Below are positions 34,999 through 43,001 of a DNA stretch of 64,000 nucleotides, piece by piece; position 1 is the stretch's first letter, and each line of letters starts with the position of its first letter. The stretch covers positions 1 through 64,000 of the forward strand of contig VXTP01000022.1 in assembly GCA_009837395.1 (NCBI GenBank), read 5' to 3'. Position numbers and translations under genes: made by a program. The stretch comes from Gemmatimonadota bacterium (lineage in GTDB: Bacteria; JAAXHH01). Under the pieces are notes generated by a model, which was not told where the DNA came from, did no database searches, and saw only the letters and a program-made list of their open reading frames with translations.

Positions 34999-35114
34999 GG
35001 TAATTCCTGGAGGTACCTGGTAATCCTTAGTGTTGCCTGGATGCTGCGGGAAATGCGCACGAAGCGAGGATGATTTACTGGCGTAAGGTCCGTTGTGTCA
35101 ATAAAATTACGTCC

Positions 35115-35810
35115 ATGGACCGCATTCCCATTCCCCACAGTCTCTCCATAACGCTGGACCGTATCAACGAACGGCACTTCCTCGGCGAATCGTTCGACCG
35201 GATCGAAGCGGAACACACCCTGGACTGGCTGGCCGGTCGTTTCGGCGCGGATTCCGCCTATGCCGGGACATTCGGCGTTACCGAACAGGACAGCCGATCC
35301 AAACTCTATACCTTCACGGGTGAGCGGCTTCAATCGGCGTCGCTGCGGCATATCCACGCCGAGGAAACCTGCCGGGCTATCATCCTGCTGAACCGCCGTG
35401 TCGGGCGCGACCGGCTTCCCGAACTCGAGGCGGCAACGTCCGAACTGCTCGGGTGTTTCGAGGCGGCGCACGCGAAGGGCAAACCGCGGGGTACGTTCTG
35501 CTGCGGTCCGTGCACCGTCTCGCTCTGGCGGCACATGGCCATTGGCGGTCTTGGTGACTACGCCCGTCACCTGGACGAAGGAATCGGCGTATTGGCGAGC
35601 CACGAAGACGGGGCGGGGACGTGGCGCCGGTTCCCCTTCTACTACACTTTGCTTGCCCTGTCCGAGGTAGACACGCCGAATGCCCGGCGCGCTGTGTCGT
35701 ACGCCTTTCCGGAATGCGAACGCCGCCTGAATACCATTAGGCGAAACACCCCGTTTGGCGTTCGAAGATACGGGTTGTTGTCCCGGATCCTTGAGAAAAA
35801 CGCTGCTTAA
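35115..35810 (+). CDS. hypothetical protein with CCGPC motif
   Basis: MDRIPIPHSLSITLDRINERHFLGESFDRIEAEHTLDWL...GTFCCGPCTVSLWRHMAIGGL. Confidence 0.7.
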   Translation: MDRIPIPHSLSITLDRINERHFLGESFDRIEAEHTLDWLAGRFGADSAYAGTFGVTEQDSRSKLYTFTGERLQSASLRHIHAEETCRAIILLNRRVGRDRLPELEAATSELLGCFEAAHAKGKPRGTFCCGPCTVSLWRHMAIGGLGDYARHLDEGIGVLASHEDGAGTWRRFPFYYTLLALSEVDTPNARRAVSYAFPECERRLNTIRRNTPFGVRRYGLLSRILEKNAA

Positions 35811-35998
35811 ATGGAATTTGGATGATGGGCTTGACGCGAAACGGACCAGGCGTTAGTTTGATGTCCGTTGCGCACCGGGGCGTATCCATTCCGCGGAAAA
35901 GGCCGAGCCTACCCGATCCATTTCGTAACTTAAGAATACGCGAATCTCTTTCTTCTCCGAAAATGCGGAATCGGAGTGCCATGGAAAGGAATTCGCCG

Positions 35999-37204
35999 AT
36001 GAAAGACCCTCGCACGCTTCCTCAGCATCCCGATCTGGATCAGCTCAAAACCCAGGCGCGGGAACTCCTCAAAGCATATCGCTCGGGTGATACCAAGGCG
36101 GCCCAGTCGTTCGCCGCGCATCCTCGCACGATTGATCCCACTGCGGTGAAACTCGCCGACGCTCAACTGGTTCTGGCCCGGGAATACGGGTTTTCGAGTT
36201 GGCCTGTCCTTCGCCGGGAAGTGTGCCGTCGCCGGTTGCGTGCCGCCATCTGGAGTGGTGACGCGGCGTCCGTCGAAGCCGTCCTGGAACTGGACAAGAA
36301 TATAGTCAACGATGCCGTGAACCACCCGCGCTGGGGAGGGCGCCCCGTGCCAATTCAAATTGCGGCGGAACGCGGGGACACGAAGGTCATCGAAATCCTG
36401 TTGCGCAACGGGGCGGATCCGAACGGCGGCACCGATTCCTACGGAGGCTGGACCGCCCTTCACCTCGCGGCTCACTGGGGACACAACGATGCGGCCGAAA
36501 CGTTGCGGTCACACGGAGCGAACGTGGATCTGCACGCCGCGTGCCTGCTGGATGATGTCAACGCCGTTCGGTCGTTATTGGCGGAAGATTCCGGCGCGGC
36601 ATCCCGTCCGGGTCTGGGTGGAGAACCGCCACTCCACGTGGTTGTGTCCGCGGAAACGGCCGGGCTCCTGCTGGATCACGGAGCGCCGCTGGATACGGTC
36701 GACGGCGATGGCAACACGCCGCTGGGCGCGGCGCTGTCCCGCGGCGAACGCTGTCGCCAGCTGGCGGAGTACCTGATCGACCGGGGCGCGCCGGTGGATC
36801 CCTGCCAGCTCGCCGTTCTCGGAAGGACAGACCAGCTCAGCCGGCTTTGCCGGACCGATGCAGGCGCGGTGGCCTACGAAGGGAAGATCGGGGTTCACGC
36901 GGTGGTGGGAACGCCCCTGCACGCCGCGGTGCAGCATAGACAGGAGGAAACGGTTCGGATGCTGCTGGGTTGCGGCGCGGATGCGAACGCTCGGGCGGAC
37001 TCCGGGCAGACGCCCCTGCATCTGTGCGGGGACGCCGGGATCGCGAAGATGCTCGTCGATGCCGGCGCCAACCCGGGTGCGACAGACGATGAACACGGCA
37101 CGACGCCGCTCGTATGGGCGGAAGTGGGGATTGAAATCCACGGCACGACGCCGAAGCGCGAGGCCCTGGTCTCGTATTTGAAGGATATCACGCCGGCACG
37201 GTAG
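35999..37204 (+). CDS. ankyrin-repeat protein with N-terminal HPDL/GFSSWP module
   Basis: LPQHPDLDQLKTQARELLKAYRSGD...LADAQLVLAREYGFSSWPVLRREV, then ankyrin repeats (GWTALHLAAHWGHNDAAETLRSHGANVD). Confidence 0.88.
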   Translation: MKDPRTLPQHPDLDQLKTQARELLKAYRSGDTKAAQSFAAHPRTIDPTAVKLADAQLVLAREYGFSSWPVLRREVCRRRLRAAIWSGDAASVEAVLELDKNIVNDAVNHPRWGGRPVPIQIAAERGDTKVIEILLRNGADPNGGTDSYGGWTALHLAAHWGHNDAAETLRSHGANVDLHAACLLDDVNAVRSLLAEDSGAASRPGLGGEPPLHVVVSAETAGLLLDHGAPLDTVDGDGNTPLGAALSRGERCRQLAEYLIDRGAPVDPCQLAVLGRTDQLSRLCRTDAGAVAYEGKIGVHAVVGTPLHAAVQHRQEETVRMLLGCGADANARADSGQTPLHLCGDAGIAKMLVDAGANPGATDDEHGTTPLVWAEVGIEIHGTTPKREALVSYLKDITPAR

Positions 37205-38756
37205 GACTGGCGGCTTCGAACATGGAGACGATGCGTTCCTTGTCGGAGCGCTTCATCCGGCGGGCGATCCCCAGGGGCGTTTTGCCCAGTCTGTCTTCAA
37301 GGGTCGGGTCCGCGCCGCGGACCAACAGCAGGGCCGCCGACTTCACCACGTCCGCCCGGGGACCCGCCTTCAGTGCGTAAAACAGGGGGGTCTCGCCCTT
37401 TTCACTTCGCCCGTCGACCGGGGCGCCGTTGTCCAGCAGCACCTCCATCACCCCGGTGAATCCGGCCTTGGCGGCAAAGTGCAGTGCGCCGGCGCCGCGC
37501 AGTACCGTGTCGATCCGGGCCCCCTTGTCCAGCAGGGCCTGCACGTACCGGGGATCGTCCCGCTGGCTGTTGTTTCCCGTGCAGGCCGTCCAGATCCAGT
37601 TTCCATCGGGATAGTTGACGTCGGCGCCGCGGGCAATCAGCAGGGCCGATTCTTCTTCGTCGAGTACCCATCTGCCACATCCGATCCGGGTGGCGTCCGC
37701 GCCCTGCTCCAACACCACCCGAAGCAGATCGGTTTGCCGTCGACCGGCGGCGTAACGGACCAGGGCCGTGCTGTTTACGCCGACTTTGGCGCCCTGGTCG
37801 AACAGCATCCTCGCGACCTCTTCGTGTCCGCCGTACACCGCATGATGTAGCGGTGTAACGGGCAGCAGGTCGCAGGCGGGATCCTGCGCGTCGACCAGTC
37901 CGGGTGCTGCATCCAGAAGTTCGGATACCCGGTCCAGGTCACCCAGAAAACAGGCGCTGAAGATATCATACACGGCACCCCGCTCCAGCAGGAACGCGGC
38001 CGTCTCGTCCTTCTTCTTGCTCAGCGCGGCACAGTGGGCGGTCATCATGATGTCGCTCGAATGGGCCGACGGAAGGTTTACGTCCACTCCCCGGTCGAGC
38101 AGCAGGGCCGCTACCCGAGTGTGGCCCCGCAACACCGCTTCCGCGAGGATGATCGCGCCGTGACGGGGATCGTCCAGCACCGCAGGATCCTCGTCCAGGC
38201 AGCGCTCGAGGGCTTCCGCCTGTCCCCTGGCCGCCAACCTGGCGGGCGTTCTCCATCGCTTTTCCCGGTGACACCTCATCTCCCAGCCGTGCCGGGCGGG
38301 TTTTTGCTCGTTGACGAGGCCGTGGGCAAGGGGCCGAAGCACGTACAGCACTTCGGCAACGAGCGTTTCGTCGTTGATGTGATTCCGCAGCGAAGCGGTC
38401 ATGTGGGACAGCCACCGGTCGGCGGATGCCCGGGTGATGTGAATGTGCTCGTGCCGGTTTTTTATTCCGCCGTAGGCGTGGTGCCGCGTATAGCCCGGTT
38501 CGCCGCCCATCCACTCCTCCATGAACGCCTTCTGCTTCATGCGTTCTGGAGCCAGCGTACGGGTGAACATGGGCCGTAGCTCGGCGTCCTTTTCGATCCG
38601 ATCATACAGGCCGTCTATGATGCCCGCGACCACGGATCGGCCGCCGATCCGTTCGAACAGGGTGGGATCCGGCCGCAACACGGTGGCGAGCCCGCCACGG
38701 TGGGCCAGCAGAGCCTGGATACGGGACGAATCGCCGGATGCTGGTGTTGCCGGCAT
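37188..38756 (-). CDS. truncated hemoglobin-ankyrin fusion protein
   Basis: N-terminus FERIGGRSVVAGIIDGLYDRIEKDAELRPMFTR...FMEEWMGGEPGYTRHHAYGGIKNRHEHIHITRASADRWLSHM resembles a truncated globin. C-terminus has ankyrin repeats (TPLHHAVYGGHEEVARMLFDQGAKVGVN). Confidence 0.85.
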   Translation of the reverse strand: MPATPASGDSSRIQALLAHRGGLATVLRPDPTLFERIGGRSVVAGIIDGLYDRIEKDAELRPMFTRTLAPERMKQKAFMEEWMGGEPGYTRHHAYGGIKNRHEHIHITRASADRWLSHMTASLRNHINDETLVAEVLYVLRPLAHGLVNEQKPARHGWEMRCHREKRWRTPARLAARGQAEALERCLDEDPAVLDDPRHGAIILAEAVLRGHTRVAALLLDRGVDVNLPSAHSSDIMMTAHCAALSKKKDETAAFLLERGAVYDIFSACFLGDLDRVSELLDAAPGLVDAQDPACDLLPVTPLHHAVYGGHEEVARMLFDQGAKVGVNSTALVRYAAGRRQTDLLRVVLEQGADATRIGCGRWVLDEEESALLIARGADVNYPDGNWIWTACTGNNSQRDDPRYVQALLDKGARIDTVLRGAGALHFAAKAGFTGVMEVLLDNGAPVDGRSEKGETPLFYALKAGPRADVVKSAALLLVRGADPTLEDRLGKTPLGIARRMKRSDKERIVSMFEAASPTVPA

Positions 38757-39020
38757 TGCACCATCCTCGGGCCATGGAGTCAGACGATACAGATCCGGAG
38801 ATTCCCGCAAGATCGGAATGCGGGACCTGGGACCTGGTACCTGGTGCAAAGTAGCCGCCGGCGGGCGTTGTTATCAAGGGGTTTCATCGCCTTGCCGCCC
38901 GTAATTGTGCGTTGACGCCGCCGCGGGCGCGTGTTATATAGAAACGGGCGCATCCACGGACCGGTCGCGGTTTTGCGGTATGCGCTTTATCCTTTTGGAT
39001 GCCTTTCCGGGGATCCCCCG

Positions 39021-39977
39021 ATGGATACCACGACCTCTACCGTTGAACAGAAATTCGAGTCGGCCCTCGCGTCTTTCGTGAGCAAGGCGCAGGAAGACCG
39101 GCACATCCTGGCGGCGATTCTCTTCGGCAGCCTCTCCGCCGACCGGGTATGGGAGAAATCCGATATCGACCTGATCGTCGTCACCCGGGACGACAAGGAC
39201 CTGTTCCGCCGGGACAGCAGGGATGACGACGAGGTATCCGAAGGCGCCGCGCTCCTGGAGAACGACGTGTATATCCACGTGTTCATGCAGCCGCGCTCCG
39301 CGTTCAGGAAGATGATCGAAGGCGGACTGCAAAGCTCGTTCATGCACTCGGCCCTGGCCAGAAGCCGCCTGCTCTTCACCCACGACGAGACGATCCGGGA
39401 ACTGTACGACGGCATCCAGGCGTTGCATTCGAGAGACCGCCAGGTCCAGCTCATGCACGCGGCATCGCACGTGATACCCACCCTGTACAAGGCAGAGAAG
39501 TGGTTTCACGTTCGGCGCGATCTGCACTACGCGTTTCTCTACATCATGTTGTGCGCGAGCAGCCTCGCGAAGATCGAGGTGTTCATGCACGGCCAGCTAG
39601 CCGGTCGCGAAGTCATCCAGCAGGCGCTGGAACTCAATCCGGGGTTTTTCAACAAAGTGTATACAGACCTGATCGACCAGCCGAAGACCGAGGCGCTGGT
39701 AGGTGAAGCGCTCGGGCTGATCGATACCTATCTCGAGAAACGCCTGCCGGACCTGTTCCAGCCCATTCTCGACTACCTCGAAGAAGAAGGATCGGCCAGG
39801 TCGGTCACGGAGATCGAGACCTGGTTCGATAACCAGATGAATCTGAAGGGTGTTACCACCGTGTGCGAATGGCTCGCGGACAAGGACGTCATTTCCCGGG
39901 TTTCCAGCCCGCTGCGTCTCACGTTGAAGAGCAACGTGGAGTACGAGGAACTCGGGTTCTATTACTACCGCGGGTGA
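39021..39977 (+). CDS. nucleotidyltransferase-domain protein
   Basis: ILAAILFGSLSADRVWEKSDIDLIVVTRDD (GS...DxD motif). Confidence 0.82.
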   Translation: MDTTTSTVEQKFESALASFVSKAQEDRHILAAILFGSLSADRVWEKSDIDLIVVTRDDKDLFRRDSRDDDEVSEGAALLENDVYIHVFMQPRSAFRKMIEGGLQSSFMHSALARSRLLFTHDETIRELYDGIQALHSRDRQVQLMHAASHVIPTLYKAEKWFHVRRDLHYAFLYIMLCASSLAKIEVFMHGQLAGREVIQQALELNPGFFNKVYTDLIDQPKTEALVGEALGLIDTYLEKRLPDLFQPILDYLEEEGSARSVTEIETWFDNQMNLKGVTTVCEWLADKDVISRVSSPLRLTLKSNVEYEELGFYYYRG

Positions 39978-40043
39978 TTCTGCTGCTGCCGTGGGCGATA
40001 CTACGGCTGCCGTGGGCGAACAGTCGCACGGAAATCCTGGAGC

Positions 40044-43001
40044 ATGGGCATGTCCGAAATCCCGGTCCGGTCGCGTACATCCGCTGATCGCGCATCCGCC
40101 GATCCCGCCTCGGCCGGTCCCCGCACGACGATCCTGGTACAGGGCGCCCGGGAGCATAACCTCAGGGACATCACCGTAGAACTGCCGCGCAACCGTCTGA
40201 TCGTGGTAACGGGGCTTTCCGGTTCGGGGAAATCTTCCCTGGCCTTCGATACCATCTACGCGGAAGGCCAGCGGCGATACATGGAGTCGCTCTCCTCCTA
40301 TGCCCGCCGGTTCATCCAGCAAGTGGGCAAGCCGGACGTGGACTATCTCTTCGGGCTTTCTCCCGTCATCTCCATCGAGCAGAAGACCGTTGCGCGCAAT
40401 CCACGCTCCACCGTGGGCACCATGACCGATGTCAGCAGTTACCTGAACCTGCTGTTCGCCACGATCAGCCGCGCCGGCTGTCCCTTTTGCGGCCGCGACC
40501 TTCCGATCAAGACCGCGGTGCAGATCCTCGATGAACTGCTGTCGCTGCCCAAAGGCACCGAAGTGGAACTGCGCGCGCCGGTTACCCGGATCTATGGCGA
40601 GGACCTCGACTTCCTCTTCGCGGAAATCCGGAAGAAGGGGTATCGCCGCATGGTGATCAACGAAAAGCCCGTGGACATCAGCGGCGAGGTCGATGTCGAC
40701 GAATCCGGTGACCTTCGCATGGAGGTGATCGTAGACCGGTTCGTGCTGAAACCAGGTGTCGAGAAACAACTGGTCAAGGGGATTCAGAACGCACTGATCG
40801 CCGGGGACCAGTACATCAGGATCCACGTGGCGGCCTGCCGCAAAAAAACCGCCGTCGAACGGTTCTACGCGTCCTTCGGCTGCCCTGAACACCATCTCGC
40901 GGTGGGCGACCTGGCGCCGGACTACTTCCAGTTCAACAATCCGTCCAGCGCGTGCCGGACCTGTCTCGGACTCGGTACGTACATGGTCGTGCACCGGGAC
41001 CTGTTGGTGCCGGACAAGTCGCTGAGCATCCGGGACGGCTGTTTCGTCAAGGACGCCTTCAACTACAAGCCGGATACCTGGTCCGGGCGGGTCATGTACA
41101 GCCTTTCGGTGCACATGGGGTTTAGCCTCGATACGCCTTTCCGTGCGTTACCTCCACATATCCAGGACGTGCTGTTCGACGGCACGCCGGACAAATTCCC
41201 CCTGTTGGCGCCGCCCGATGCGAAGGAACCCGATCACAAGCTGCTCGGCAAGCCATGGGGATTCGGCGGTATCGGCAAGGGGATCGAGCGGAACTACAAG
41301 CGGTATCGGCAGAAGCAGGTGGCCAGCTCGGGCATGGAAGCCTGGCTCGAAAAGGTCATGGTGGAGCGGGTGTGTCCCGATTGCAAGGGATCCCGGCTCA
41401 AGGAGTCCCGGCACCTGTTCCGGATCAACGGCCGCACGGTCCACGACTTCGGAGAGATCAATTTCGACGAACTCCGCGCCGAGCTGGAAGCCATCGAACC
41501 CGCGGGGCGCCAGGAACTGGCCGGCCGGCAGGTGATCCGGGAGATTATCGGCCGGCTCGATCTGCTGCTGGGCATCGGCCTGGACTACCTCAACTTCAAC
41601 CGCCGCGCCGGTACCCTCTCGGGCGGCGAAGCGCAGCGCATCCGGCTCTCCACGCAGATCGGATCTGGCCTGATGGGCATGCTGTACGTGCTGGACGAAC
41701 CGAGCATCGGTCTGCATCCCCGCGACAACGTGAAGATGATCCGCACGCTCAGGCAACTGCGCGATCTTGGCAATACGGTCATCGTGGTGGAGCACGACGA
41801 GGAGACCATCCGGGCGGCCGACCACATCGTGGAAATGGGGCCTGGACCGGGCGTGCACGGCGGGGAGGTGGTGGTGCAGGGCGATCTCGACGATATCCTG
41901 CACTGCGCCGCATCGCCGACCGGCCAGTATCTCTCGGGCGCACGGACCATCGAGACCCCGCAGATGCGGCGCGGGCCTACCGGAAAATCGCTGCGCATCC
42001 TGGGTGCGCGGGAGAACAACCTCAACGATATAGACGTCGAGATTCCCCTGGGACAGTTCGTCTGCGTGACCGGTGCATCCGGATCCGGGAAAAGTACGCT
42101 GATCAACGAAGTGCTGTTCAAGAAGCTGTACAACCAGCTGTACGACAGCCGCGTGCTCGCGGGAGACCACGACCGGCTCGAAGGCGTCGAGCACATCAAG
42201 CATGTCATCAACATCGACCAGTCGCCCATCGGCCGGAACGCCCGTTCGAACCCGGCCACCTACATCGGGTTCTACGACCAGATCAGGACGCTCTTTTCGA
42301 AGACGGACGAGGCGGTATCGCGCGGATACCGGCCCGGCCGGTTCAGCTTCAACGTGGCCGAGGGACGCTGCGCCGAATGCAACGGGGAGGGAACGATCAC
42401 CACCCAGCTTTACTTCATGCCGGATGTGGAGGTGCCATGCGAGGCTTGCAAGGGCGCCCGGTACAACCCGGAAACGCTGGAAGTGACCTACCGGGGCAAG
42501 ACCATCGCCGATGTGTTGAACATGTCCGTCGAAGAGGGGGTCACCTTCTTCGAAGAAAGGCCTTCAATCGCGAAGAAGATCGGGACGTTGGACCAACTGG
42601 GCCTGGGTTACCTCACACTGGGCCAGTCCGCCACCACCCTCTCCGGGGGCGAAGCCCAGCGCATCAAGCTGGCGAGCGAACTGGGCAAGCTGCGCCGGGG
42701 CAGCCATATCCTGTACATCCTGGACGAACCTACCACCGGGCTGCACCTGGCCGACATCGTCCATCTGCTGTCCAGCCTGAACCGGTTGATCGAAGCCGGT
42801 CACAGCGTCGTGGTGATCGAGCACCATCTCGACGTGATCAAAACGGCCGACCACATCATCGACCTGGGCCCCGAAGGCGGCCACAGCGGCGGTGAAGTCA
42901 TCGCCACCGGCACGCCCGAGGAGGTGGCGGCAATCGACGCGTCCTACACCGGCCGGTTTCTCCGAGACCACTTGAGCCATGTCCAACGCGCAACCGCATA
43001 A
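40044..43001 (+). CDS. uvrA: excinuclease ABC subunit A
   Basis: 985 aa; [88 protein letters not shown]. Confidence 0.97.

Follow-up and report, generated by a model that had tools for sequence, protein, structure and literature searches.

The question raised by this locus was whether one reading frame, lying in a 64,000-nucleotide stretch of Gemmatimonadota contig VXTP01000022.1 (hereafter the window), joins a heme-competent truncated hemoglobin to ankyrin repeats, and what such a protein could do. Truncated hemoglobins (TrHbs) are common and their function is mostly unsettled. A conserved fusion to a protein-interaction module offers a handle on it, as the ankyrin partner would tell the purpose of the globin.

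Gene structure and domain organization

The original prediction described a truncated globin in the first ~130 aa and an ankyrin array following in the same ORF, and both its content and its coordinates (37188-38756) proved correct, the globin being further refined to group II (TrHbII). PF01152 (Bac_globin) matched aa 32-146 with 63.9 bits (E 2.1e-17; Pfam curated cut-off of 21 bits), in agreement with truncated hemoglobins from the PDB, and Ank_2 matched the same protein (E 4.5e-28, array at aa ~174-516) together with several further ankyrin models above cut-off. The Pfam search of the 522 aa displayed no reductase or other catalytic domain. The protein was divided as follows:

37188..38756, minus strand: TrHbII-ankyrin fusion gene, 522 aa, stop included (ORF translation, Pfam, orthologs)
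38664..38756, minus strand: N-terminal extension, aa 1-31, with an 'HRG' motif (H19 R20 G21) and a predicted helix at 8-20
38307..38663, minus strand: group II truncated hemoglobin domain, aa 32-150, assigned from PF01152, PDB matches and predicted helices
38238..38306, minus strand: conserved linker, aa 151-173 ('MRCHREKRWR')
37209..38237, minus strand: ankyrin-repeat core, aa 174-516 (Pfam Ank, Foldseek, invariant columns)

The 522 aa were obtained from the ATG at 38756, an in-frame TTG upstream (38849) giving 31 aa extra; aligned orthologs started with GTG or ATG at or near the 38756 position. An artefact of contig assembly or a frameshift was excluded by orthologs 90-92% identical in several independent assemblies, one of them on a 2.87 Mb contig. 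H19 and R20 of the N-terminal extension were invariant in a 10-sequence alignment, and no signal peptide was apparent by eye at this N-terminus. In the linker, R161, C162, R164, W168 and R169 were invariant among fusions of the contig's phylum. The ankyrin core carried family-specific motifs, namely DPACD (292-296), GxGxWV (359-364), W387 and CTGN (392-395). Median dN/dS within the genus was 0.16 for the globin, 0.16 for the ankyrin part and 0.15 for the linker, the N-terminal extension being the least constrained part of the protein (0.30). These ratios point to purifying selection acting on the reading frame in both the globin and the ankyrin halves.

Two other sets of matches of the repeats were rejected as generic. 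Models of Dot/Icm ankyrin effectors (NCBIfam AnkY, AnkG and others) reached at most 46.7 bits for cut-offs of 500-1400, which corresponds to generic ankyrin similarity, and the PADLOC ankyrin matches MzaA and PDC-M72A were of the same generic repeat kind.

Globin group and heme site

The closest solved structures were the truncated hemoglobins 2bkm (3.3e-16), 5d1v and 1ux8 (YjbI of B. subtilis), all of group II; structures of group I scored lower. A tryptophan at G8 is typical of group II truncated hemoglobins. Since this residue (W115) was invariant and the top PDB matches were group II, the fusion globin was assigned by sequence comparison to group II (TrHbII, TrHbO-like). Gap-free alignment to 1ux8 and 2bkm assigned the following heme-site positions:

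38604..38606, minus strand: Y51, TyrB10, distal; Y in 23/23 fused and 20/20 standalone globins
38565..38567, minus strand: F64, PheCD1; F in 23/23 fused globins
38544..38546, minus strand: E71, GluE7, family-specific distal residue; E in 20/23 fused globins
38532..38534, minus strand: Q75, GlnE11; Q in 19/23 fused globins
38451..38453, minus strand: H102, proximal His F8; H in 23/23 fused and 20/20 standalone globins
38412..38414, minus strand: W115, TrpG8; W in 23/23 fused globins

F78 (PheE14) was also invariant in the 23 fused globins. H102, the histidine of 'RH' in 'KNRHEHIHIT', falls at the conserved 'RH' of 1ux8 and 2bkm in the alignment. The candidate proximal histidine proposed earlier was retained as this residue, which is kept in all fused and standalone globins; neither a lack of globin matches nor a loss of the proximal histidine, each of which had been named as grounds for dropping the prediction, was found.

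A small residue at E7 is common among group II TrHbs, where it is not taken as defining. The fused family departs from this habit, with Glu in 20 of 23 sequences, whereas the 20 standalone relatives harbored G, A, T, S or P and none had Glu. GluE7 was read as variation inside group II, and not as a ground for exclusion from it.

The full-length AlphaFold model, built with 20 aligned relatives, had both domains modelled confidently (mean pLDDT 90.7, pTM 0.85). Predicted globin helices (33-37, 40-56, 69-82, 98-101, 109-126 and 130-146) matched a 2-over-2 globin, as judged from the helix pattern of this model, and were followed by an ankyrin solenoid. Foldseek with the full model retrieved ankyrin-repeat proteins and DARPins, with solely ankyrin-type structures among the best 50 matches listed. 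A single-sequence model of the N-terminus alone (pLDDT 46) was left out of the analysis. With all residues needed for heme present, the heme site is intact and the domain is predicted to be heme-competent.

Distribution of the fusion

The fusion was encoded in 14 of the 16 genomes examined of the contig's phylum (absent from G012 and G014), comprising all 12 genomes of the contig's genus together with members of two more genera of the same order. NCBI record names of these carriers designate Candidatus Latescibacterota or Gemmatimonadetes MAGs. Beyond the phylum, searches that included a scan of 85,462 species genomes, with MAG taxonomy accepted as given, detected it in a second phylum-level group (G058, G059, G519 and G520; frameshifted in G488) and in Chloroflexota (G060, G062, G063, G315 and G357). 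The fusion has been kept in distantly related bacteria and is no product of assembly or local peculiarity.

Some copies were interrupted. The G011 fusion was split at contig ends and that of G008 showed a late frame change. Copies in L035 (labelled Actinomycetota) and G488:C23 lose frame, and L038 (8001-8660) has, within one frame, a deletion of the globin's second half and of the first ankyrins; the broken copies of L035, L038 and G488 could be pseudogenes or MAG errors. Together with the variation of E7 and E11 in some lineages, these broken or deleted copies would suit a vestigial globin that has lost heme binding and merely stabilizes the ankyrins. However, all 23 sequences keep TyrB10, PheCD1, PheE14, HisF8 and TrpG8, and the globin has a dN/dS of 0.16, so that this explanation is the least probable of those considered.

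Origin of the two-domain protein

Fused globins formed one clade in a maximum-likelihood tree of 43 globins (support 99/96), with two standalone TrHbIIs (L074 and L075) as sister branch; the standalone globins, collected with a fusion-trained model, are not a neutral sample. The ankyrin core was also found alone, as a conserved and mostly single-copy protein of ~340-390 aa (hereafter Ank-only; L127-L146, from the G053 phylum and the G058 group). A ~390-aa form was carried by 60 of the 85 genomes of a further phylum, that of G053 (partial copies counted), and a ~340-aa form in many genomes of the group of G058. C242, D264 and W387 were common to the ankyrin core of the fusion and its Ank-only homologs. 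The Ank-only genes of the G053 phylum often have neighbors of the PhyH-like dioxygenase type (identified by eye).

In the ankyrin tree, Ank-only proteins formed one clade (98/95), with L070/L071 nearest to it, then L089, then the remaining fusions, some of these branches being weakly supported. The branching order among fusions in the globin tree matched that of the ankyrin tree rooted on the Ank-only clade, a pattern compatible with a single fusion followed by joint descent of both domains. Because of the distance of its outgroup the ankyrin tree is unrooted, and one loss of the globin, rather than a gain, is possible.

Searches for PF01152 in 23 Ank-only genomes gave no match in 22, the exception being G505 (35.8 bits), and a Rosetta-stone search displayed no separate globin beside Ank-only genes. 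Since the ankyrin core is conserved without a truncated hemoglobin in most of these genomes, it must have a role of its own. The globin contributes on top of this role, and resembles an input or catalytic domain added onto an ankyrin module. Comparing the naturally occurring proteins that have the globin with those that lack it would directly test its contribution.

Genomic context

The fusion gene stands by itself, with an ankyrin gene transcribed towards it on one side and a nucleotidyltransferase gene transcribed away from it on the other; no conserved regulatory or output gene was found among its neighbors, which vary between lineages. For these reasons an operon clue to its function was rejected. 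The convergent ankyrin gene (35822-37204, plus strand) lies tail to tail with the fusion, their ends overlapping by 17 bases. An ORF of 246 aa (35070-35810, plus strand), also found near the fusion in L025, had no Pfam, NCBIfam or PADLOC match. The nucleotidyltransferase gene adjoins an apparent uvrA near the fusion both in the window (38931-43001) and in the distant L033 (12352-16198), possibly as a remnant of shared gene order.

Most of the Ank_2 matches of the 3.8 Mb genome (31 of 39) fall in the 64-kb window, in 12 genes between ~10.6 and 51.1 kb. The region 10400-51300 forms an ankyrin gene cluster, and several ankyrin matches surround the fusion in other members of the genus too. The fusion is independent of this cluster because G013, L033 and others have different neighbors. 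Location within a cluster of 12 ankyrin genes, and carrier record names that in some cases suggest sponge metagenomes, would be expected of a secreted eukaryotic-like symbiosis effector whose ankyrins act on host (sponge) proteins. Ankyrin proteins are listed among the eukaryotic-like proteins of sponge-associated Latescibacterota (PMC12993501). The fusion is nevertheless also present in genomes named for groundwater, lake or open-ocean samples, and its ankyrin surface is conserved across phyla, unlike that of diversifying effectors. The lack of an apparent signal peptide (by eye) and the conservation of this surface across habitats make a secreted effector very unlikely.

In the contig's genome, Globin PF00042 gave no match and the only other PF01152 match (21.5 bits) was a secreted protein without recognisable proximal His, which leaves the fusion protein as the sole globin found there that is predicted to be heme-competent. 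L002 (G000:C42:154560-154865), L055 and L059 share an apparent signal peptide and a weak truncated hemoglobin match without recognisable proximal His, L002 and L059 having in addition a low-complexity acidic tail; they possibly represent a heme-less exported 2/2-globin-like family.

Proposed function

We tentatively favor a reading in which the protein is a cytoplasmic ankyrin adaptor controlled by a heme-based gas/redox switch. The fusion gene would yield a soluble, cytoplasmic two-part protein, the N-terminal TrHbII of which would bind heme b through H102. O2, NO or a change in heme redox state would be received at the polar distal pocket, made of TyrB10, GlnE11, TrpG8 and the unusual GluE7. 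The conserved linker would join the globin to the ankyrin array, which would dock a conserved cellular partner, and a ligand or redox change in the globin would alter the binding of ankyrins and partner. The ankyrin adaptor would be the older part, to which the globin supplies a heme-based input. Because the protein has no reductase or catalytic domain and its linker is conserved, a heme-based input that changes ankyrin docking appears to be the most economical reading.

The sensing of O2, NO or redox state coupled to protein-protein interaction, as originally predicted, fits the evolutionary pattern of a standalone ankyrin module joined once by a heme-competent globin, but a docked heme enzyme is also possible, and the ligand, the output and the partner are putative. 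The polar TyrB10/GlnE11/TrpG8 combination is just as characteristic of TrHbs suggested to carry out redox or NO chemistry and, to our knowledge, standalone TrHbIIs are not established as sensors. In this main rival explanation, which is possible if doubtful, the globin would be an NO dioxygenase, a peroxidase or a peroxynitrite scavenger, held by the ankyrins near a reductase or a protected protein. Being the only heme-competent globin of the contig's genome would suit such an enzyme, GluE7 could serve as acid/base in the distal pocket, and the raphidophyte nitrate reductase-TrHb fusion has been termed an NO-detoxifying enzyme (PMC3820574). Conversely, neither a reductase domain in the protein nor a conserved reductase neighbor was found, and 22 of the 23 Ank-only genomes searched lack a truncated hemoglobin, so that serving one was not what the ankyrin module evolved for.

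Heme handling, in which the fusion would carry heme and insert it into another hemoprotein, has a precedent in bacterial ankyrin proteins: Cj1386 of Campylobacter jejuni, which contains ankyrins, binds heme via Tyr57 and passes it to the catalase KatA (PMC11442138). The invariant F8 His and the full 2/2 globin fold instead suggest a tight and stable heme rather than a transfer site, and no catalase or heme gene was found among the conserved neighbors, which makes heme handling unlikely.

Extending the favored switch, and more tentatively than the switch itself, these proteins may form an undescribed family of heme-gas-controlled ankyrin adaptors, in which a truncated hemoglobin acquired, in a single event, an ancient bacterial ankyrin module with its conserved partner. 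They would constitute a 2/2-globin sensor with a protein-docking output, with GluE7 setting the ligand chemistry.

Comparison with known systems

No description of a TrHb-ankyrin fusion was found in the open-access papers searched. The group II TrHbs 1ux8 (Bacillus subtilis YjbI/trHb) and 2bkm (Geobacillus stearothermophilus) share with the fusion the fold, TyrB10, PheCD1, GlnE11, HisF8, TrpG8 and the GG..Y..RH pattern; they are single-domain proteins of ~130 aa, to which the fusion adds the N-terminal HRG helix, GluE7 and the C-terminal ankyrin array. The Ank-only family (~340-390 aa, e.g., L127 and L137) has a homologous ankyrin core without the globin.

Globin-coupled sensors combine a 3-over-3 sensor globin with signalling outputs. 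The fusion resembles them in how it would work, with an N-terminal globin input and a different C-terminal module, but it is built from a 2-over-2 TrHbII and ankyrins: PF01152 was the only globin family matched in the protein, and the globin was followed solely by ankyrin repeats, with no known signalling output domain. Cj1386 is likewise a bacterial ankyrin protein linked to heme, for which no globin domain is reported. The raphidophyte nitrate reductase-2/2Hb also has a truncated globin inside a larger protein (PMC3820574), its partner being a redox enzyme while that of the fusion is a protein-binding repeat. Chimeric globins as such are thus already known.
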